From positions 62,001 through 126,000 of the forward strand of contig CATKHK010000090.1 in assembly GCA_949751835.1 (NCBI GenBank): a DNA stretch of 64,000 nt. Direction: 5' to 3'. Positions 8,379-25,154 of this stretch are shown here, piece by piece (the first letter of the stretch is position 1; the number at the start of each line of letters is the position of its first letter). The DNA comes from Blepharisma japonicum (taxonomy: Eukaryota > Ciliophora > Heterotrichea > Heterotrichida > Blepharismidae). A model generated the notes under the pieces. It was not told where the DNA came from. It worked only from the letters and a program-made list of their open reading frames with translations, and searched no databases. A program made the position numbers and the translations under genes.

Positions 8379-10010
8379 ATGTCTTTATTTTCCCTTGCAA
8401 TTGTAGGTGCAGGACAATACGGGACCGCCCTTGCATTAGCTGCAAGCTGCAACGCAAAAGCTATAGTCCGACTAATTGACGTTTCAGAAGCAAAATTAGC
8501 CTTTTCCAGCTCATATTTTCAGAAATGGATGTACGACAAAAATAAATTGGTCAATGTAAGCTCCTCATACGCTTATGAAGTAATAGAAAGAATCACATGG
8601 TCTCAGAACCTTGAAGACACTTCTTATGCTAATTTTGTATTTGAATGTATTGATGAAGACCTAGTGCTTAAAAACGACGTCATAAGACAGATCGAAAAAT
8701 ATACAAGTGAAAATACTGTCATTGCGAGCACGACTAATCATATATCTATAGGGAAAATCGCAAAAAATACAAAGGCACCACATAGGATTCTTGGGATGCA
8801 TTTTCCACAGTGTCCGGTGAAATATAATGCATGCGAAGTGGTAGCACATAAGGGGAGCTCGAAAGCAGCAGTGGATAAAGCTTGTGATTATGCTATAGAG
8901 ATGAGCTTTAAGCCAGCTGTGTGTCTTGATACACCTGGGTTTATTGCGAATAGGGCTCTTTATTTGCTTATAAATGAAGCTGCTTATATGCTGTATGAAG
9001 GGAATGCGAGGAAAGAAGATATTGACAATGCTGTACGTAGGGCGTTGTTTAATCAGCTAGGGCCGCTAGAATTGGCTGATTATATTGGGATTGATGAATT
9101 GTTGGAAGGACTGAGGACTTTTCATAAAGAGACTGGAGATGATAAGTTTCGACCTTGTCCTCTGCTTGCCAAAATGGTTGATGCAGGCTGCTTAGGCAGA
9201 AAAACAAACCAAGGATTTTTTGAGTATAACTTTGGAGAATTCTTAGGCCGCCCTAAGCATAAAATAGAGTCCTATAATGCCTGGGACCAAAAAATGAAAG
9301 ACATAATTGGCTTAGAATTAGAATTCAAGAAAAAATATGACGTCGTCTATAATACCTCTCACATTGACTATTTAGAAAAATTTGACGCAATTTCCCACAG
9401 AGATACCCTAAAAGATCCAGAAGACTTATTTGCGCTTGAATCTCCAAGCGAAACCCGAGAAAAAGACATAGAAGACATGAAAAAAATTGCTGAACTGATG
9501 AAGCAGCACAATGAAGAAGTACTCAGAGGGTCATTTGGCGGTCACAGAGAAGGTGAGAACTCTGAAGAAGATTTTTCAAAGGACGAAACTTATGAAAAAG
9601 CTAGAAAAGTTTGGGCCGATTGAGACCTTAAGAATGAAGAACTTAATGAGGAGCTTGAAACTTTCAAAAATACTGAGGCTTTTAAAGAGGTCATGTTTCC
9701 AGAAAAAAAAGATGAGTATTTCGAGGATCTTTATGAAATATTTGAAGAAAAAGCAAATAAAGGACCATTTAAGGATGATTCCCATCATTGGAAAGATGAC
9801 GTAGAAGAGGAAGATATGATGGAAGAATTCCAAGATATCAATCTTGATATAAGAGGAGAAGAGCTAGAAGAACAGCTCGGCCAGACAATTGAGTCGTGGA
9901 AGAGACAGAGAAAAGCTGCTGAGCATGCTGAAGGGACTGTAAAGGCTGGAGGGGCTGAAGAGGCTGTAGAGATTGAAGAGGCTGAAGAGTCTGGCAAAAA
10001 GAAAGAGTAA
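8379..10010 (+). CDS. 3-hydroxyacyl-CoA dehydrogenase with long acidic C-terminal extension
   Basis: A 543-aa protein read through TGA at 9621-9623 (KVWADWDLKNEE). The first 300 residues or so are a short-chain-type 3-hydroxyacyl-CoA dehydrogenase. They show a Rossmann NAD motif AIVGAGQYG (Gly10, Gly12, Gly15), STTNHISIG, the catalytic His segment ILGMHFPQCP, Glu in ACEVVAH, and the C-terminal-domain motif PGFIANRALYLLINEAAYML. These enzymes oxidise L-3-hydroxyacyl-CoA in beta-oxidation or butanoate metabolism. The last 240 residues or so are highly charged (Glu/Lys/Asp), have no recognised domain, and are unusual for the family. The part encoded by 9243-10010 is duplicated as a pseudogene at 11306-12059. 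Confidence 0.9.
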
Positions 10011-10174
10011 TATATTATTTATAAAATATCTGCTTCAAAAATATGATAAATTAATTGTATGTTAAAATAATGATGGGTCATATTAAAGGTCTTCCCATGA
10101 TGAATTTTTGAATTGCAAAGTAAGAAATATTTTAAATAAAGACTGACCTATTATGTCTACAATTTTTATATAAA

Positions 10175-10810
10175 ATGGACGATTCAAATGCACAATTGTA
10201 TACATTCGGCAGACACAGTACTGGAAGAGGAAAGTACGAAGCAGAAGATATCGGTCACTCTATTGCTCCAGGCGAAATGAGCTTTTATAGCTCCATTCTT
10301 CTACCGTTATTTACAATTTTACTTGCAATTGCGTGCTTAGTTGTTTCATTCTACGATCCAAAATCTTTTACAAAGCAATCTTACGCGAGAGTGTATTTAA
10401 TTACCTCAGCGATTATATTATTTATTGATTTTGCCTGTGTGTTTACTGAATCTCTACTAGCCAAAAGACAAGTAAACATCAGATGGGTAAAATTTCAAAA
10501 ATTTTCAATAATCTTTTTACTAGTCTCTTACATTTTTCTTGCAATTTTTGGCTCATTTATGATTTCCAATGTGAGTGAGTATATTAAATCCTCTAAAGAC
10601 AATGCTCCAGTATCGCTGGCTTTTATTACTGTATATTTCTTTATTGTTTGCAGAACTCTTATTGATATCGGATCATTTGTGGCTTTTTGAATGTTCCAGT
10701 GCTTTAAAAACAGTTCTGAAAGTGAAGCACTAGGCATAACTGATACCCCAAGTTCTCCAAATCTTGAAATATCTGAAGACGATATTGATCTAAATGAAAA
10801 AACAAAATAA
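10175..10810 (+). CDS. Four-TM membrane protein of unknown function, copy 1
   Basis: A 211-aa protein ending at TAA 10808-10810 after an in-frame TGA at 10688-10690 (GSFVAFWMFQCFKN). Four hydrophobic segments are clear: SSILLPLFTILLAIACLVVS, VYLITSAIILFIDFACVF, FSIIFLLVSYIFLAIFGSFM and VSLAFITVYFFIVCRTLI. The N-terminus is polar and Gly-rich (about 35 residues); the C-terminal tail is acidic and Ser-rich (about 35 residues). Tail-in/tail-out topology is not determined. I recognise no family. A near-identical second copy is at 12212. Confidence 0.75.
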
Positions 10811-11305
10811 TGATATTATGATAATAAAATAAATTTTGAAATTTTGGTTAAAAATTAAGACTGAAAGCTCACTGAAAGAAAGAAGTATATAAATATTTAA
10901 TCACTATGTCTAAATTTTTTTTATTTCAAAATCAATGCAAAGATTCTAATTCTTGTAAGAAATTAGAATTATTCTACAGAATAACTATTAAATATTAAAA
11001 TAAATTTAGTTAAATATTATACAACTCACTTTTAATCATGTCCACCACATTGTGTATGTGTAACATCTGATCTAGTATAGGCCTCATGATGAGGCCGCCT
11101 TCCTCTCCGAGTAATGGTCCAGCAGTTTTTTAGCCATAGGGATACTTTCGTCTCCAGCTGCAAGAACTCTTTTCTTATGTCACCTTCGCTATCAGGATTC
11201 CATCTCATAGATTTCACTTCACTGGATCACGGTAGAATTTCATCCATTCGTCTATCCTTCCTGAAAGATGTTTTCTTAGGGCTTAGGCCGGAAAAAGAAT
11301 AAAAT
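10811..11305. other. Spacer with degraded foreign-looking segment
   Basis: The first 170 bp or so repeat downstream of copy 2 of the 4-TM gene. The part from about 11037 to 11280 is visibly richer in G and C than its surroundings and is listed separately. Confidence 0.6.
11037..11280 (-). pseudogene. Degraded coding fragment of unknown gene
   Basis: On the minus strand two frames look protein-like in turn. One reads LRKHLSGRIDEWMKFYRDPV and continues KWNLWDGILIAKVT using TGA as Trp, then hits TAA. The next frame reads RVLAAGDESIPMAKKLL, then DHYSERKAASSWGLY and a TAG. The base composition is richer in G and C than the flanks. The most economical reading is a truncated, frameshifted gene remnant at the duplication junction. 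I do not recognise the family. Confidence 0.4.
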
Positions 11306-12059
11306 ACGGTCCTATAATGCCTGGGACCAAAAAATGAAAGACATAATTGGCTTAGAATTAGAATTCAAGAAAAAATATGACGTCGTCTATAATACCTCTC
11401 ACATTGACTATTTAGAAAAATTTGATGCAATTTCCCACAGAGATACCCTAAAAAATCCAGAAGACTTATTTGCCCTTGAATCTCCTAGCGAAACCTGAGA
11501 CAAGGACATCGAAGACATGAAAAAAATTGCTGAACTGATGAAGCAGCACAATGAAGAAGTACTCAGAGGGTCATTTGGCGGTCACAGAGAAGGTGAGAAC
11601 TCTGAAGAAGATTTTTCAAAGGACGAAACTTATGAAAAAGCTAGAAAAGTTTGGGCCGATTGAGACCTTAAGAATGAAGAACTTAATGAGGAGCTTGAAA
11701 CTTTCAAAAATACTGAGGCTTTTAAAGAGGTCATGTTTCCAGAAAAAAAAGATGAGTATTTCGAGGATCTTTATGAAATATTTGAAGAGAAAGCAAATAA
11801 AGGACCATTTAAGGATGATTCCCATCATTGGAAAGATGACATAGAAGAGGAGGATATGATGGAAGAATTCCAAGATATTAATCTTGATATAAGAGGAGAG
11901 GAGCTAGAAGAACAGCTCGGCCAGACAATTGAGTCGTAGAAGAGACAGAGAAAAGCTGCTGAACAGGCTGAACAGGCTTAACAGGCTGTAGAGGCTGAAG
12001 GGGCTGTAGAGGCTGAAGAAGTTGAAGAGGTTGAAGAGGCTGACAAAGAGAAAGATTAG
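11306..12059 (+). pseudogene. Truncated duplicate of the dehydrogenase C-terminal part
   Basis: Nearly identical to 9266-10010 but lacking the catalytic dehydrogenase domain. It also carries nonsense changes: TGG to TAG at 11937-11939 (ESWKRQ in the parent) and a TAA about 40 bases later in the Gln/Ala/Glu tail. The fragment has no start of its own and begins at the duplication junction. Confidence 0.85.
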
Positions 12060-12211
12060 TATATTATTAATAAAATATCTGTTTCAAAAATATGATAAAT
12101 TAATTGTATGTTTAAATAATGATGAGTCAGATTAAAGATCTTCCCATTATGAATTTTTAAATGGCAAAGTAAAATAAAGACTGATCTATTTATGTCTGCA
12201 ATTTATATAAA

Positions 12212-12847
12212 ATGGACGATTCAAAAGCACAATTGTATACATTCGGCAGCCACAGTACTGGAAGAGGAAAGTACGAAGCAGAAGATATCGGTCACTCTAT
12301 TGCTCCAGGCGAAATGAGCTTTTTTAGCTCCATTCTCCTACCGTTATTTACAGTTTTACTTGCAATTGCGTGCTTAGTTATTGCATTCTACGATCCAAAA
12401 TCTTTTACAAAACAATCTTACGCGAGAGTGTATTTAATTACCTCAGCGATTATATTATTTATTGATTTTGCCTGTGTGTTTACTGAATCTCTACTAGCCA
12501 AAAGACAAGTAAACATCAGATGGGTAAAATTTCAAAAGTTTTCAATAATCTTTTTACTAGTCTCTTACATTTTCCTAGCAATTTTTGGCTCAATTATGAT
12601 TTCCAATGTGAGTCAGCATATTAAATTCTCTAAAGACAGTGCTCCAGTATCGCTGGCCTTTATTGCTGTATATTGCTTTATTGTTTGCAGAACTCTGATT
12701 GAGGCAGGATCATTTGTGGCTTTTTGAATGTTCCAGTGCTTTAAAAACAGTTCTGCTAGTGAAGCACTAGACAACACAAATACTCCAAGTACTCCAAATC
12801 TTGAAATATCTGAAGACGATATTGAAATAAAAGAAAAAACAAAATAA
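12212..12847 (+). CDS. Four-TM membrane protein of unknown function, copy 2
   Basis: A 211-aa tandem paralogue of the gene at 10175, with the same in-frame TGA (12725-12727) and TAA at 12845-12847. Differences are scattered substitutions (for example Arg to Ser at residue 13, Asp-Ile to Glu-Ala before GSFVAF). All four hydrophobic segments and the acidic tail are preserved, so both copies may be functional. Function unknown. Confidence 0.75.
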
Positions 12848-13067
12848 TGATATTATGATAATAAAATAAATTTTGATTTTTTTGTAATAATTAAGACTGA
12901 AAGCTCACTGAAAGGAAGAAGTATGTAAATATTTACTTAATATGTCTAAAATTTTTTTATTTCAAAATCAATTCAAAGATTCTAAGTAATTAAGACTTTA
13001 AGCTGCAATTTTGAGATTGTATTTAAGGAAAATCTAGAAAAAGTGACTTTCTTTCTATAATATCAAA

Positions 13068-16000
13068 ATGGAACAAGACAAGAGGGAAGTATTCGGGCGT
13101 GCTCAATTAGTCAAGGATAACAAATTGTTAGTGTACATACCAGAAGACCAGATGCACCTTGCTCTTCCGTCATCGTGAATTAGTAAAGCCCCTATAAACT
13201 CTGTTATAAGGTTTTACCATTACAAGAACAAATATCATAAAGCTGAATTATACGAATCATACTCCACTGTTGATGGAATTATTGCTGAAGATCGAAAGGA
13301 AAGCTATCTAGTGAGTGTTCAAGCCTCCAGCAGCTCTTATATCAATATAGCAGTCCCAAAAAATCTGTTTACAATAGACAATGTTTCTCCATTAGTCGGT
13401 TCACAGGTCACTCTCTACAAATCTGAGAGTGGGAAAATTTGGAATGCAATGGTTAAAGAAAAGGTAATAGAATCTGAGATAAAAAAGGTAGAAAAAGCAA
13501 GCAATCAAGAATATCCAGATACCGTGGGAAAATCAAGAATTAATATATATCATCTGAAGAGCGAATATGCATTTAATAACAAAATGCTAGATTTTATTGA
13601 AAAATTGGGGACAGAATATGCAGCATTCAGAAGATCAAGAGGAGATGGGAACTGCTACTATCGGGCTGTAGGAGTCAGCTATATTGAGTACTTGTGCAGG
13701 CCAACTACTAATTTAAGTGAATTTGAAAAATTTATAAGGAAACTTGAAAAAAGAGAAGGAATTTTTAGAGAAATTAAGGGATTTAGTCATAGACAAGAAT
13801 TTTTGAAGTTGCTAGAATACTTATATGGCTGCAAAAAGGCAAATGTATGATCAGCTATAAAAGAAGCTCAAAATATTTTCCAAGATATAAACGATGACGA
13901 GACTATTGTCAGAGAAATGAGAGCAATTGCTTCTTTGTACTTAGTTGATAATTCTACAAACCCTAAGCTTTCTGGATTTCTAGTAAGTGAAGAAATTGGA
14001 TATGAGAATACTCAATCTTTGTATATGAAAATGATGAAAATGGGAGAAGAAGCTGAAGGGGTAACGTTCATCTGCATGTCAGAAGCTCTTCAGATAAGAT
14101 TCCATCATATATTCTTAGGAAGAGAAGTACTGGATATGCATAATTTTGAGCCTGAAGAAGCCACAAATTCTGATATATATTTATTATTAAAGCCTGGACA
14201 TTATGATTTGCTTTACACCCATAAGCAAATTCAAGATGACCGCTATGATTTAGAAACGTCTCAATTTGTGCCTCAAGGAGCACAGAATGTCAGTAGAGAT
14301 CTTCAAGCAGCTCAAGGGGTTCCAGAAAACTACACAGCAAAATTGTTGTCTCATATCCAGTATTTATATGAAAATTTATATCATTTATCAGTGAGTAATA
14401 AGTTGCATCGTGTAGATCTTCTCCCAGATTTCGGACAGCAGATTTCTACCTTTTGGAGTCAATTTTCAAGCTTAAGCAGCTATAACTATAAGCCCTCCTC
14501 AAGCATTCTTAGTGAAGCTGAAGAAAATCTATTAAAAGTGGCTTACAGCGACAATTTCACTTCTCGACTATTAGAAATCTGTTTTTATTGCCAAGAAAAG
14601 CCATCATCCATTATTCTCAAATGTGGCCACTTATATTGCCAAGATGACATAATAGACTGCTTAAACCAACAAACTGGAGGAGTTTTCTTATTAAACCCAT
14701 TCGAAATAACCACACCTATAACGTGCCTAATGTGTCCCCAAGAAATTAGTCAAGACGAAATAAAAGTAGCATTAGGAGATACATGGGAATATTATGACCA
14801 AATGAGAGCAGAAAGGCAAAAAAGCTATCAACAAAAAATAGATAAAGAACAAGGGGTTGTTACATGCATTAATTGTGGAGAAAGGAGACAAAAGGAAGAG
14901 TTTAGGAACAGGCACCAGTGTATCTGTGACATCTGCATGAGAAAAGTAGCGTCGCAAACTAAAATTTGTCCTATTTGTGAAAGAGAAATTAAGATGGAAG
15001 AAATTGCAGGGATTGTGAAGCCTCTTTGTGGATATTGCCAAGAAGTTATTAAAGAGTTTAGCTTGGTGAAGTGTAAGTCACATTGGCTGTGCAGCAATTG
15101 TGAATCAATCAGCTATTTATCACAAAATTGTGTATTCTGTAACAGAAATTTCAACAAAGGAGAATACGAGCTGATCTCAACTCGATATAAATTAATTTGT
15201 GCTATTTGCAACGGAAGCTTTAACCAAGAAGATATAAAGAAAAGCGAATGTCCCTGCACTATATGCAAAGACTGCTTTAAAAAATGCGTGAATGAAAACG
15301 GTAGTGTTTGCATGTATTGTGGGAGAATGGTAGAAGACATTGACCCCGATTTTTTTGAACAATTTAAAGACCCTCCACCTCTACCATCTAAAAAGAGCTG
15401 TGCAGTATGCTTTGGAGAGTTTGAAAGAGCAGAAATGCTTACATTATCATGCGACCACTATTTTTGCAAAGATTGCTTAATAGGCTATTTCGAAAGCGAA
15501 ATCGACTCTGGAAAAATTGGTCCAAATGGGATTAAATGCCCACTTCCAGATTGCCCTGAAATAGTCGACGGAAGTATTATGATTGCCGTTTTGAGCCCAC
15601 AAAAATGGGACTTTTATAATAAAATTTCAATAAAAAAACAATATAAAATTGCAGAATGCCCCAAATGCAAGTGTGAGTTTGAAATAGACCAAAACCAAGT
15701 GAGGTGCCCTCAATGCAAGTTTAGATTTTGTGCTGCATGTCTGAAAGACCAGCATGCAGGAAGCTGTGATGAAAATGAAAGGAAAGAAATCTTGAGGGAT
15801 CTTGAACAGAGCGGAGAGCCAGTATCTCAATGTCCAGGATGCAAACACCCTTATTTAAAGGATAAAGCCTGCGATCATGTAAAATGCACCCAGCCTAATT
15901 GTGGTATTGAATTTTGCTTTAGGTGCTCGTGCATAAGAGGACCGACGCTAGTGCACGGAAATCATTACCATAGGCCGGAATGCAGCTTTTATGCTGATTA

Positions 16001-16118
16001 TGCAGGAGAAAATGTGTATAGTCCTGATAAATGTGCAGAATGCAAAAAATTAAATAGATTGTGTCCGAGGCCACAGAAATTGAATACTCCAAGGAGATTT
16101 GAAGAAGGCGAAGTTTAA
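13068..16118 (+). CDS. Otubain-like deubiquitinase fused to RING-like fingers and an RBR ubiquitin ligase, copy 1
   Basis: A 1016-aa protein from ATG 13068 to TAA 16116-16118, with in-frame TGA (Trp) in the N-terminal region and after CKKANV. Residues about 185-385 form an OTU peptidase of the otubain (C65) type, with catalytic Cys196 in RGDGNCYYRAVG and His378 in LKPGHYDLLY. Residues 505-751 contain four RING-like Cys/His clusters beginning CFYCQEKP, CINCGERR, CGYCQEVI and CAICNGSF. Residues 778-955 are a canonical RBR module: RING1 CAVCFGEF...CDHYFCKDC, IBR CPKCKCEF...CPQC...CAACL, and RING2 CPGCKHPYLKDKACDHVKC with the thioester Cys935. RBR ligases carry ubiquitin on the RING2 Cys; otubains cut ubiquitin chains. 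Both catalytic centres look intact in one polypeptide. Confidence 0.92.
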
Positions 16119-16149
16119 ATAATTATTAATATAATCTCATGAATTAAAT

Positions 16150-16347
16150 GGTGAAACTAGAAAGGGTAGTGCTCCAATATTACTTGCTTTTATTGCTGTA
16201 TATTGCTTTATTGCTTGCAGAACTCTAATTGAGGCAGGATCATTTGCGGCTTTTACCAGTAGAGTAGTAGACAACACTGAAACCCCAGGTACTCCAAATA
16301 ATGATATATCTGAAAAAGAGATTACTGTGAAAATCAAAATAAAATAG
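16150..16347 (+). pseudogene. 3' remnant of the four-TM gene
   Basis: The segment around ttgctgtatattgctttatt and the following acidic-tail codons match the last third of the 4-TM genes (compare 12660-12847), with deletions and a lost TM. No open frame to a start exists. It shows that the ancestral duplicated unit held a 4-TM gene ahead of each otubain-RBR gene. Confidence 0.7.
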
Positions 16348-16461
16348 ATGAAATATTAATAATAAAATAAATTATTTTTGGCGAATAATTAAGACTGAAA
16401 GCAGCAATTGTAGTATTATTTAAGGAAATCTAATAAAAAATAATTTTCTATAATAATCGAA

Positions 16462-16525
16462 ATGTAATTTAATAAAAGAGAGTATTTGGAGAGGCTCAAT
16501 TAGTCAAGGATCATTTTTTAGGACA
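16462..16525 (+). pseudogene. 5' remnant of the otubain-RBR gene
   Basis: The stretch ending gaggctcaattagtcaagga matches the first 60 bases of the otubain-RBR reading frame (13068 onward). It has a TAA as second codon and then runs into unrelated spacer. A short, dead third copy of the 5' end. Confidence 0.6.
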
Positions 16526-16773
16526 TATAACTAAGGACCGAAATCTCACTAACAGGAAGGATTATGTAAATATTTAATTAGTGGGTCTAAAATTTTTTTA
16601 TTTCAAAATAAATTCAAATATCCTAAATCTTGTGTTGAGAAATGAGGATAATTTATGCAGAATAATTCATTAATATTGAATTAAAATAAATTTCTTCTTT
16701 TTGATATTAAATTATGTTAGCACAATTTTGAGATTATACTTAAAAAAAGTGATTTTCTTTTGATAATATCAAA

Positions 16774-19700
16774 ATGGAACAAGACAAGAGGGAAGTATTC
16801 GGGCATGCTATTTTTGTAGAGGATAGCAAATTGTTAGTATACATACCAGAAGACCAAATATACGTTGCTCTTCCATCATCATGAATTAGCAAAGCCCCTA
16901 TAAACTCGGTTATTAAGTTTTATTATTACAATAACAATTATCATAAAGCTGAATTATACGAATCATACTCCACTGTTGATGGAATTATCATTGAAAACTG
17001 AAAGGAAAGCTATTTAGTGAGTGTCCAAGATTCAAACAGCTCTTCTATCAATATAGCAGTCCCAAAAAATCTGTTTACAATAGACAATGCTTCTCTCTTA
17101 GTAGGCTCACAGGTCACTATCTACAAATCTGAGAGTGGGAAAATTTGGAATGTTAAGTTTAAAGAAAAGGTAGTAGAACCTGAGATAAAAAAGATAGAAA
17201 AGGCAAGCAATCAAGAATATCCATATACTGTGGGAAAATCAAGAATTAATATATATCATCTGAAGAGCGAATGCTCATTTAATAACAAAATTCTAGATTT
17301 TATTGAAAAATTGGGAATAGAATATGCAGCATTCAGAAGATCAAGAGGAGATGGGAACTGCTACTATCGGGCTGTAGGAGTCAGCTATATTGAGTACTTG
17401 TGCAGGCCAACTACTAATTTAAGTGAATTTGAAAAATTCATAAGGAAACTTGAAGAAAGACAAGGAATTTTTAGAGAAATTAATGGATTTAGTCATAGAA
17501 AAGAATTTTTGAAGCTGCTAATATACTTATATGGCTGCAAAAAGGCAAATGTATGATCAGCTATAAAAGAAGCTCAAAATATTTTCCAAGATATAAACAA
17601 TGATGAGACTATTGTCAGAGAAATGAGAGCAATTGCTTCTTTGTACTTAGTTGATAATTCTACAAACCCTAAGCTTTCTGGATTTCTAGTAAGTGAAGAA
17701 ATTGGATATGAGAATAATCAATCTTTATATATGAAAATGATGAAAATGGGAGAAGATGCTGAAGGGGTAACCTTCGTCTGCATGTCAGAAGCTCTTCATA
17801 TAAGAATCCATCATATATATTTAGGAAGAGAAGTACTGGATATGCATAATTTTGAGCCTGAAGATGCCACAAATTCTGATATATATTTATTATTAAAGCC
17901 TGGACATTATGATATGCTTTACACTCATAAGCAAATGCAAGATGACCGCTATGACTTAGAAACATCTCAGTTTGTGCCTCAAGGAGCACAGAATGGCAGT
18001 AACGATCTTCAACCAGCTCAAGAGGCAAAGAACGGTAGCAGCGATCTTCAAGTAGCTCAAGGAGTTCCAGAAAACTACACAGCAAAATTACTTACTCATA
18101 TCCAGTATTTATATGAAAATTTATATCATTTATAAGTGAGTAATAAATTGCATCGTATAGATCTTCTCCCAGATTTTGGACAGCAGATTTCTACCTTTTG
18201 GAGTCAATTTTCAAGCTTAAGCAGCTACAACTATAAGCCCTCCTCAAACATTATTAGTAAAGCTGAAGAAAACCTATTAAAAGTGGCTTACAGCGACAAT
18301 TTCACTTCTCGACTATTAGAAATCTGTTTTTATTGCCAAGAAAAGCCAGCATCAATTATTCTCAAATGTGGCCATTTATATTGCCAAGATGACATAATAG
18401 ACTGCTTAAACCAACAAACTGGAGGAGTTTTCTTACTAAACCCATTCGAAATAACCACGCCTGTAACGTGTCTAATGTGTACCCAAGAAATTAATCAAGA
18501 CGAAATAAAAGTAGCATTAGGGGCTGCATGGGAATATTATGACCAAATGAGAGCAGAAAGGCAAAAAAACTATCAACAAAAAATAGATAAAGAGCAAGGG
18601 GTTGCTACATGCACTAATTGTGGAAAAAGGAGACAAAAGGAAGAGTTTAGAAATAGGCACAAGTGTATGTGTGACATCTGCATGAGAAAAGTAGCGTCGG
18701 AAACTAAAATTTGTCCTATTTGTGAAAGAGAAATTAAGATGGAAGAAATTGCAGGGATTGTGAAGCCTCTTTGTGGATATTGTCAAGAAGTTATTAAAGA
18801 GTTTAGCTTGGTGAAGTGTAAATCACATTGGCTGTGTAGCAATTGTGAATCAATCAGCTATTTATCACAAAATTGTGTATTCTGTAACAGAAATTTCAGC
18901 AGGGGGGAGTACGAGCTGATCTCGACTCGGTATAAATTAATTTGTGCTATTTGCCAGAGAAGCTTTGACCAAGAAGATATGAAGAAAAGCAAGTGTCCCT
19001 GCACTATATGCAAAGGCTGCTTTAAAACATGCGTTGATGAAAATGGCAGTGTTTGCATATATTGTGGGAGAATGGTAGAAGACATTGACCCCGATTTTTT
19101 GAAGAAATTTGAAGACCCTCCACCTCTACCATCTAAAAAGAACTGCGCAGTATGTATTGAAGAGTTTTTAAGAGCAGAAATGCTTACATTATCATGCGAC
19201 CACTATTTTTGTGAAGATTGCTTAATAGGCTATTTAGAAAGCAATATCAACTCTGGAAAAATTGGTCCAAATGGTATTAAATGTCCGCTTCTAGATTGCC
19301 CTGAATTCGTCGACGGAAGTATTATAATGGCCCTTTTGAGCCCAGAAAAATGGGACTTTTATAATAAAATTTCAATAAAACAACAATATAAAATTGCAGA
19401 ATGCCCTAAATGCAAGTGTGTATTTGAAGCAGACCAAAATCAAGTGGGGTGTCCTCAATGCAAAGTTAGATTTTGTGTTGCATGTCTGAAAGACCAGCAT
19501 GAAGGAAGCTGTGATGAGAATGAACGGAAAGAAATCTTGAGAGATCTTGAAAAGAGCGGAGAGCAAGTATCTCAATGTCCAGGATGCAAACACCCTTATT
19601 TAAAGGACAAAGCCTGCGAACATGTAAAATGCACCCAACCTAATTGTGGTATTGAATTTTGCTTTAGGTGCTCATGTATAAGAGATCCGACGCTAGCGCA

Positions 19701-19863
19701 TGGAAATCATTACCATAGGCCAGAATGCGACTTTTATGGTGAATTTGCAGGAGAAGATGTGTATAGCCCTGACATATGTGCAGAATGCAAAAAATTAAAT
19801 AGATTGTGTCCGAGGCCACAGAGATTGAAAACTCCGAGGAGGTTTGAAGAAGGCGAAGTTTAA
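16774..19863 (+). pseudogene. Otubain-RBR fusion, copy 2, interrupted by one TAA
   Basis: A tandem paralogue of the gene at 13068, in one frame over 1030 codons except for a TAA at 18133-18135 (codon 454). Copy 1 has TCA (Ser) there, in the context YHLSVSNKLHR. Before the stop lies a complete otubain domain (DGNCYYRAVG and KPGHYDMLY present). After it, 575 codons hold all RING-like fingers and the RBR with its RING2 Cys (KDKACEHVKC). The rest of the downstream frame is clean, so the break is recent, read through, or leaves a free-standing deubiquitinase. The first ATG after the stop lies inside the first finger (CLMC). An extra 16-codon or so repeat of the NGSSDLQ type precedes the linker. 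Confidence 0.8.
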
Positions 19864-20098
19864 TAATTATTAAATAATTTATTTGCATTAAATGAAAAAG
19901 TTAAAGGTATCAGGACTTTCACTTACTTTTGTAAACCCGAATCATAAATGCTTGATGTTTTAGCTAAAAATCCCGCTTAATTAGGAAATAGTCATACTTT
20001 TACAGTTTTACAGATAAAACAGAAAAGAATTTATGTATTTTGCACCCTATTGCCGATACATGTCAGACAGTTTCATTATTTGTCTAATATTAAAATAA

Positions 20099-24021: not shown

Positions 24022-25154
24022 TTAGAAGCACTTGCGGTGAACAATGCTAGCTCCTGCTTCATCATATTCAGCCTTGGTGATCCACATCTCTTGGAAGCTT
24101 GAAAGTGAGCTGAGAATTGATCCTCCAATCCAGTTTGAGTATTTTCGTTCAGGTGGTGCAACAACTTTAATTTTCATGCCTTGTGGTACCTTTGCTACAA
24201 GTTCTTTATTGAGTCTTTCAGCAATTCCTGGATACATGGTAGACCCCCCACTCATGACAATGTTTCCGTATAATTCTCTTTGAATATCTGAGTCACATTT
24301 CATGACTGATTTATAAGCAACCTCATCTATGCCATCAATATCAAGCCATAGCAAGCTTGGCTGGAACAAAGCTTCAGGGGCTATGAATCTTTCGCTTCCT
24401 AGTGTGATTATGCTTCCATCAGGCATCTTGTAGTTTTTCTGGATTTCTGAAGAAGTCCGGGCTTTTTACTTTTCTTCTTCGAAGTCCAAAGCAACGTAGC
24501 AGAGCTCCTCTTTGATGTCTCTGACAATTTCTTTCTCAACTGAGTTGGTCAGTGAATAGCCTCTCTCAGTCATGAGTCTGACCAAGTGCAAGGTCAAGTC
24601 ACGACCAGCAACGTCAATTCTTTGAATTAAGGGTTTCAAAGAGTAACCTTCAAAGATTGGCATGACGATGGTTACTCCATCTCCTGAATCAACGATTATA
24701 CCAGTGGTTCTGCTAAGGCTGTATAAGGATAGCAAAGCTGTGTATGCGACGTAGAAAGCAGGGACGTCGAAAGTTTCGAACATGATTTGGGTCATCTTTT
24801 CTCTGTTGTTCAAAGGGTTGAGAGGAGCTTCAGTGAGAAGGACTGGGTGCTCGTCAGGATAGACTCTTAATTCGTTGAAGAAAGTATGATGCCAAATACT
24901 TTCCATGTCATCCCAGTTAGTAACAATACCATGCTCAATCGGGTATTTAAGATTGAGCACACTTCTCATAGCTTGTGCTTCATCACCAATATAGACTTCT
25001 TTTAATTCTTCTGTTTCTACGATGATTCCAGGCATTCTTGGGCGACCGATAATGCTTGGGAAAACAGCTCTGGGGCAAGGTCATCGACTATGCCGGCCTT
25101 GCACATTCCTGAACTGTTATCAATGACGAGACCTTGGACGTTCTGATCCCACAT
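24022..25154 (-). pseudogene. Actin pseudogene
   Basis: Almost full-length actin from ATG 25154 (VIDNSSGMCKAG) to TAA 24022, ending SIVHRKCF. Blocks seen include [71 protein letters not shown] and [15 protein letters not shown]. Two lesions break it. One base is missing between about 25057 and 25075, where KAGI shifts out of the frame that continues [12 protein letters not shown]. An in-frame TAA lies at 24466-24468, at a position that is Gln in ordinary actins. Substitutions at usually invariant sites add to the case. GC-richer codon use than its neighbours reflects origin from a highly expressed gene. Confidence 0.85.

Follow-up and report, generated by a model that had tools for sequence, protein, structure and literature searches.

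Can a single polypeptide both attach ubiquitin and remove it? The question is raised by a gene in a 64,000-nucleotide stretch of Blepharisma japonicum DNA (assembly GCA_949751835.1, contig CATKHK010000090.1, positions 62,001 to 126,000 of the forward strand), which is called the window here. In the window, the frame at 13068-16118, denoted copy 1, encodes an otubain-type deubiquitinase (OTU) domain, an array of RING-like zinc clusters and a RING1-IBR-RING2 (RBR) ubiquitin ligase in one chain. The fusion is a real and probably functional gene in which both enzymatic halves are predicted to be active, and the idea of a self-editing or chain-remodelling enzyme, put forward in the sequence-only reading of the window, is plausible as a hypothesis. 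The features of copy 1 are as follows.

13068..16118, plus strand: copy 1, fusion gene of OTU domain, finger array and RBR, 1016 amino acids in the code 4 translation, with TGA codons 37 and 261 as Trp
13068..13517, plus strand: N-terminal region (residues 1-150), no recognised domain and no Pfam match in copy 1
13524..14216, plus strand: otubain-type OTU domain (residues 153-383), Pfam Peptidase_C65, E 1.6e-28
13653..13655, plus strand: OTU nucleophile Cys196 in DGNC (residues 193-196), from the sequence and aligned to DGNC of OTUB2
14199..14207, plus strand: OTU His378 and Asp380 in GHYD (residues 377-380), from the sequence and aligned to HYN of OTUB2
14217..14564, plus strand: linker (residues 384-499), where the stop of copy 2 falls and up to about which the N-termini of the paralogs diverge
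14580..15320, plus strand: array of four RING-like zinc clusters (residues 505-556, 600-637, 654-691 and 711-751, limits by eye)
15399..15554, plus strand: RING1 (residues 778-829), Pfam RING models and ARIH1 in the PDB
15657..15767, plus strand: IBR (residues 864-900), Pfam IBR and PDB match
15831..15983, plus strand: RING2 (residues 922-972) with C935 at 15870-15872 and H937, Pfam IBR_1, aligned to GGCNH of ARIH1

The frame comprises 1016 codons followed by TAA when TGA is taken as a sense codon, and from stop to stop it extends to 1023 codons, the additional 7 lying before the ATG. With the standard code, the frame is broken into pieces by cuts at codons 37 and 261, both of which are TGA. 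The sequence-only reading had claimed such a single frame and, within it, an otubain-type centre (DGNC, GHYD), four RING-like clusters and a complete RING1-IBR-RING2 with the thioester Cys in KDKAC; the frame is borne out with TGA as sense, and the three domain assignments were recovered by profile searches.

The match of the OTU part to Peptidase_C65 scores 100.2 bits against a cut-off of 24.3 and covers positions 9-242 of the 243 in the profile, and the catalytic Cys-His-Asp/Asn set of otubains is complete in copy 1 as C196, H378 and D380. In the PDB, the best matches of OTUB2 and OTUB1 to this part have E values of 3.4e-15 and 1.4e-13, respectively. The alignment with OTUB2 extends over residues 169-384 with the Cys and His matched, whereas the third residue of the triad is Asn at the aligned place in OTUB2 and Asp in copy 1. 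Unlike copy 1, otubains are not known to carry a ligase part. No convincing Pfam match was obtained for residues 1-150.

The array (residues 505-751) matched zf-C3HC4_3 in four stretches with an E value of 5.6e-12. In the ligase half, Pfam gave IBR_1 (1e-7), IBR (2.1e-5) and RING models, and RING1, IBR and RING2 follow one another in the order of RBR ligases over residues 778-972, as judged from Pfam and the PDB. An RBR profile built from copy 1, a second copy in the window (copy 2) and the paralogs L048, L049 and L050 matched, in the PDB, ARIH1 (3.8e-20), ARIH2 (7.9e-16) and parkin (7.4e-8) over RING1 to RING2, and RNF216 was also matched; the match to HOIP/RNF31 (7.7e-8) extends over RING1-IBR. 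The motif KDKAC occupies residues 931-935, and the C-x-H pattern of RBR ligases is present, with C935 retained in all 4 aligned sequences and H937 in 3; L049 has Ile at the position of H937. The likeness to ARIH1/HHARI and other RBRs thus extends along the length of RING1-IBR-RING2 and includes the catalytic Cys. Unlike ARIH1, copy 1 has the OTU domain at its N-terminus and a C-terminal tail common to four aligned paralog sequences of this genome. Assignment to the Ariadne subfamily was rejected, because no Ariadne domain was found in Pfam at E up to 1 and copy 1 ends 44 residues after RING2.

A blastn comparison of the window with itself showed that 13006-16150 is repeated at 16723-19894 (91%) and that the adjoining block 9242-10949 is repeated at 11282-12985 (93%). 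Copy 2, at 16774-19863, is 91% identical in DNA to copy 1 and holds the same parts, with an in-frame TAA between the two halves. In the block 9242-12985, a unit of 1.7 kb lies duplicated beside the fusion genes. It comprises the terminal part of a gene resembling 3-hydroxyacyl-CoA dehydrogenase and a 211-amino-acid gene with hydrophobic stretches; in the second unit, the dehydrogenase piece is truncated.

16774..18135, plus strand: copy 2, OTU part, 453 amino acids, ending in TAA (18133-18135) at the place of TCA (Ser441) in copy 1
18136..19863, plus strand: copy 2, ligase half with finger array and RBR, 575 codons behind the stop and without another stop up to the end, all Cys of copy 1 retained
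16168..16693, plus strand: decayed fragments between copies 1 and 2, found by the blastn self-comparison, from the 211-amino-acid gene with its flank and from the 5' end of an additional copy of the fusion gene

The TAA is codon 454 of copy 2, and the ligase half after it has no gap relative to copy 1. The N-terminal region of copy 2 gave one sub-cutoff match, to PilZNR (E 0.003, 18.1 of 23 bits). Between the two copies, the ratio of nonsynonymous to synonymous substitution rates (dN/dS) is 0.32 (bootstrap 0.24-0.43) over 1015 codons; it is 0.36 (0.23-0.56) before the stop, 0.30 (0.20-0.43) after the stop and 0.25 (0.09-0.70) in the linker. Purifying selection acts on the protein taken as a whole and on the ligase half of copy 2. 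Because there is no decay in the ligase half behind the stop, the stop is probably recent or the ligase half may still be made. All 61 Cys of copy 1 are retained in copy 2 (P about 3e-4 at an assumed average change rate of 12.3%).

The continuity of the frame depends on the genetic code. In the genome examined, which comprises 45.2 Mb in 224 contigs, in-frame TGA occurs in 7 of the 11 otubain matches (copies 1 and 2 are two of the seven), 15 of the 33 actin matches and 11 of the 32 Tubulin_C matches; TGA is therefore a sense codon in this genome. Its reading as Trp rests mainly on likeness to the published Blepharisma genome, for which the accessible part of the report gives 41 Mbp, UGA as Trp and introns of 15 and 16 bp (PMC9942806). 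At the six places where TGA stands opposite another codon in aligned gene pairs, the partner encodes Trp twice and Arg, Gln, Tyr and Cys once each, and both aligned genes have TGA in eight places. A candidate intron of 15 nucleotides (GT..AG, containing TAG) was found in the otubain on contig C74. Hidden introns were sought by a script that located GT..AG segments of 15 or 16 nucleotides overlapping each TGA codon and the TAA of copy 2. The scan found none of these lengths overlapping codon 261 of copy 1 or the TAA of copy 2, and one of 15 nucleotides, at 13169-13183, overlapping codon 37, the first TGA of copy 1. We read this segment as probably coding, not as an intron, because copy 2 has no GT at that place yet retains the TGA; its removal would preserve the frame anyway.

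The genome search gave 11 matches to Peptidase_C65 and 38 matches to the RBR half of copy 1 at E up to 1e-5, not all of which are separate genes. Further fusions were surveyed in frames of at least 60 codons around 12 loci, namely the nine otubains outside the window (L009-L017) and L048-L050, using RBR and OTU profiles built from this genome. Several of the 12 loci contributed to the profiles, and their own matches arise by construction; L050 was left out of the OTU profile. RBR and OTU matches in one frame were found in one of the 12, L050. The otubains L009-L017 were rejected as further fusions, since none has RBR and OTU in one frame.

L050, on contig C97, has a single frame of 960 codons (956 amino acids from the first ATG) with an OTU-related domain, the array and the RBR in this order. 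Its ligase half retains 53 of the 56 aligned Cys at 23% identity of the other residues, which indicates conservation of Cys beyond chance; in the array alone, 27 of 30 are retained, and both C935 and H937 are present. The relation of its N-terminal domain to OTU is given by the profile, which scores 23.9 bits compared to 9.2 for the best of 1000 shuffles; the alignment stops short of the His region, and Pfam OTU models gave no match at E up to 1. Where active OTUs read SRGDGNCYYR, L050 reads SRLDINSFYR, so that the catalytic Cys is gone; there is no GHYD in the frame, and the first 360 residues contain one His only (H250). The N-terminus of L050 is therefore a probable pseudo-deubiquitinase placed ahead of an RBR. 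Because phmmer places this domain nearest to copies 1 and 2 (13.0 and 13.2 bits; next 6.3), one fusion event behind copies 1 and 2 and L050 is favoured, without being proved.

The explanation of copy 1 that we prefer, though at slightly less than even odds, is that the OTU built into the ligase trims, in cis, the chains on the ligase itself or on its substrate. In RBR ligases, ubiquitin is held as a thioester before its transfer, and many members of the family modify themselves. In copy 1, RING1 would receive ubiquitin from an E2, the thioester would form on C935 of RING2 and ubiquitin would then be passed onward, with the finger array binding the substrate, ubiquitin or the E2. The OTU half would act in cis by stripping ubiquitin from the ligase itself or by trimming the chains on the substrate, and the outcome would be short or linkage-selected chains and a protein spared self-destruction. 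Both activities, the action in cis, the role of the array and the choice of linkage are what we infer. A known parallel is OTULIN, which acts in trans on the RBR ligase HOIP; according to the accessible part of PMC7862380, binding of OTULIN to LUBAC is required for it to inhibit the auto-ubiquitination of LUBAC. An otubain linked covalently to the ligase would have this effect in cis.

In favour of cis-trimming are the two catalytic centres, which copy 1 has in one frame and which flank the stop in copy 2, the matches to otubains and RBRs in Pfam and the PDB, the dN/dS between the copies over the whole protein and in the linker, the recurrence of the order OTU, array and RBR in L050, and the behaviour of OTULIN towards LUBAC. 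Three observations weigh against it: the two halves of copy 2 are separated by a stop, the OTU domain alone has a dN/dS of 0.48 with a bootstrap range (0.23-1.19) compatible with neutrality, and L050 retains the same order of parts though its OTU-related domain lacks the catalytic Cys.

The last of these observations bears on a different role for the OTU, which could mainly be a module binding ubiquitin or E2-ubiquitin, recruiting chains or tuning the ligase, with cleavage secondary or lost. OTUB1 holds back E2s without catalysis, which counts for such a role. The dead OTU of L050 suggests that binding of ubiquitin or E2-ubiquitin may suffice in part of the family. It is paralleled by FAM105A, a human pseudo-OTU related to OTULIN according to the accessible part of PMC7862380. 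In copies 1 and 2, however, the Cys, His and Asp are all retained, and a mainly binding role is on the whole unlikely for copy 1.

Another possibility is editing, in which a substrate is bound, the OTU removes one type of chain from it and a different type is built by the RBR. The model for it is A20/TNFAIP3, a single polypeptide that combines an OTU domain, zinc fingers and ligase activity, as copy 1 brings together a deubiquitinase, a zinc-finger array and a ligase. Unlike copy 1, A20 has A20-type zinc fingers, no RBR and an OTU of a different subfamily. Membership of copy 1 in the A20 family was rejected, since the whole protein matched only RING, IBR and C65 models (E up to 1) and the array only RING models (E up to 10). 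As the fingers match RING models and no A20-type model, editing in the manner of A20 is distinctly unlikely.

The stop in copy 2, together with the low dN/dS of the uninterrupted ligase half behind it, might also indicate that the halves are made as two separate proteins, with the frame of copy 1 being expressed piecewise. However, copy 1 is open throughout, the linker itself has a low dN/dS, and the distant paralog L050 is also a single frame, which makes two separate products improbable. A non-functional or misassembled locus, as the tandem duplications and decayed fragments around the fusion gene might suggest, is very improbable in view of the Cys common to both copies, the overall dN/dS and the same architecture on another contig.

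L049, the tandem neighbour of L050 on C97, matches it at 84.5% over 697 columns. The dense similarity begins at KSALEPFRGLNGG, before which L049 has a different, Cys-rich N-terminus that is B-box-like by eye, so that almost the same finger array and RBR stand behind differing N-termini, the one in L050 being the dead OTU. From these few sequences, it seems that this ligase has exchanged its N-termini in the vicinity of the linker. Some 60 kb upstream of the pair in the window, at C90:13463-14809, there is a decayed relative.

In L048 (contig C99), the RBR is 41% identical and is preceded by a pepsin-like domain (Pfam Asp, 2.2e-46). Similar frames occur at L031 (C78), L033 (C193), L034 (C189) and L045 (C78); Pfam Asp gave 2.8e-48 and 1.6e-42 in the two that were scanned, L031 and L045, respectively. 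The catalytic motif D[TS][GA][ST] is absent from the protease part in all five, and each of the five loci has a strongly hydrophobic, membrane-like segment. L048 has a full RBR; in L031, L033, L034 and L045, the frames examined cover the RBR profile only in part. By their sequences, the five frames look like receptor-type ubiquitin ligases in which a dead protease forms the ectodomain.

For the RBR tree, 27 loci were tried, of which two had no match and five, including four of the five pepsin-type loci, had short matches only; the remaining 20 RBRs were placed in a midpoint-rooted tree, with the partial pepsin-type loci L031, L033, L034 and L045 left out. L048, L049 and L050 fall into one group with copies 1 and 2, separate from the remaining 15 RBRs (support 100/99). 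The tree thus supports a set consisting of the two otubain copies, the dead otubain L050, its neighbour L049 and one pepsin-type member, to which four more pepsin-type members are assigned by profile score and architecture only. Scans of viral contigs with the OTU domain, the RBR domain and the RBR profile, and of prokaryote genomes with the RBR profile, gave no confirmed relative. It is conceivable, though doubtful, that one RBR ligase family repeatedly gained N-terminal protease domains as controlling parts, in the form of one active and one dead otubain and of membrane-anchored pepsin-like ectodomains that are also dead; copy 1 would then be the self-editing, catalytically live member, and the dead ones would be ubiquitin- or ligand-sensing receptors.

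Several other loci were noted in passing. OTU-like frames occur at L015 (C11), L016 (C158) and L017 (C189). By eye, integrase-like frames adjoin those of L015 and L016, as in OTU-bearing transposons. L015 also has IBR-like frames on the opposite strand, and a weak RBR-like frame (E 7e-5) was scored on that strand. Elsewhere in the window, at 24025-25077 on the minus strand, an actin-family match contains one in-frame TAA, perhaps a tiny intron or a broken copy.

The sequence-only reading knew of no described otubain-RBR fusion with this finger array. No otubain-RBR or OTU-RBR fusion was found among the matches listed from a collection of 5.39 million open-licence papers, subscription papers being mostly outside the search; the accessible parts of PMC4327156 and PMC10038098 contain no OTU-RBR fusion, and that of PMC2904391 does not mention OTU. 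The kind of protein does have a precedent: according to the accessible part of PMC9741609, most of the Agaricomycete genomes sequenced encode a VTD deubiquitinase domain in fusion with an RBR ligase, and two fungal VTD domains cleave K6-linked chains. As in copy 1, a deubiquitinase is joined there to an RBR ligase; unlike in copy 1, VTD belongs to another deubiquitinase class than otubain/OTU, and no array of four RING-like clusters is mentioned in that part of the paper. OTULIN and HOIP/LUBAC resemble copy 1 in that an OTU deubiquitinase is physically tied to an RBR ligase. According to the part of PMC7862380 available, they differ in being two proteins held together by a PUB-PIM contact, in the cleavage of Met1-linked chains and in the OTU subfamily, which is not that of otubains. 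The fusion of a deubiquitinase to an RBR is thus already known as a kind, and the otubain version, its dead-OTU sister and the array of four RING-like clusters appear to be new to the literature searched.

If both halves are active, copy 1 would be a writer and an eraser of one signal in one chain, and two point mutants of a single molecule would suffice to measure the rate and linkage of editing in cis. Comparison can be made within the genome itself, where copy 1 has both centres, copy 2 is interrupted between its halves, L050 has a dead OTU and L049 joins a different N-terminus to almost the same ligase, so that the reason why a ligase carries its own deubiquitinase becomes testable. Beside the VTD-RBR fusions of fungi, the OTU case would point to convergent fusions of deubiquitinases with RBR ligases.
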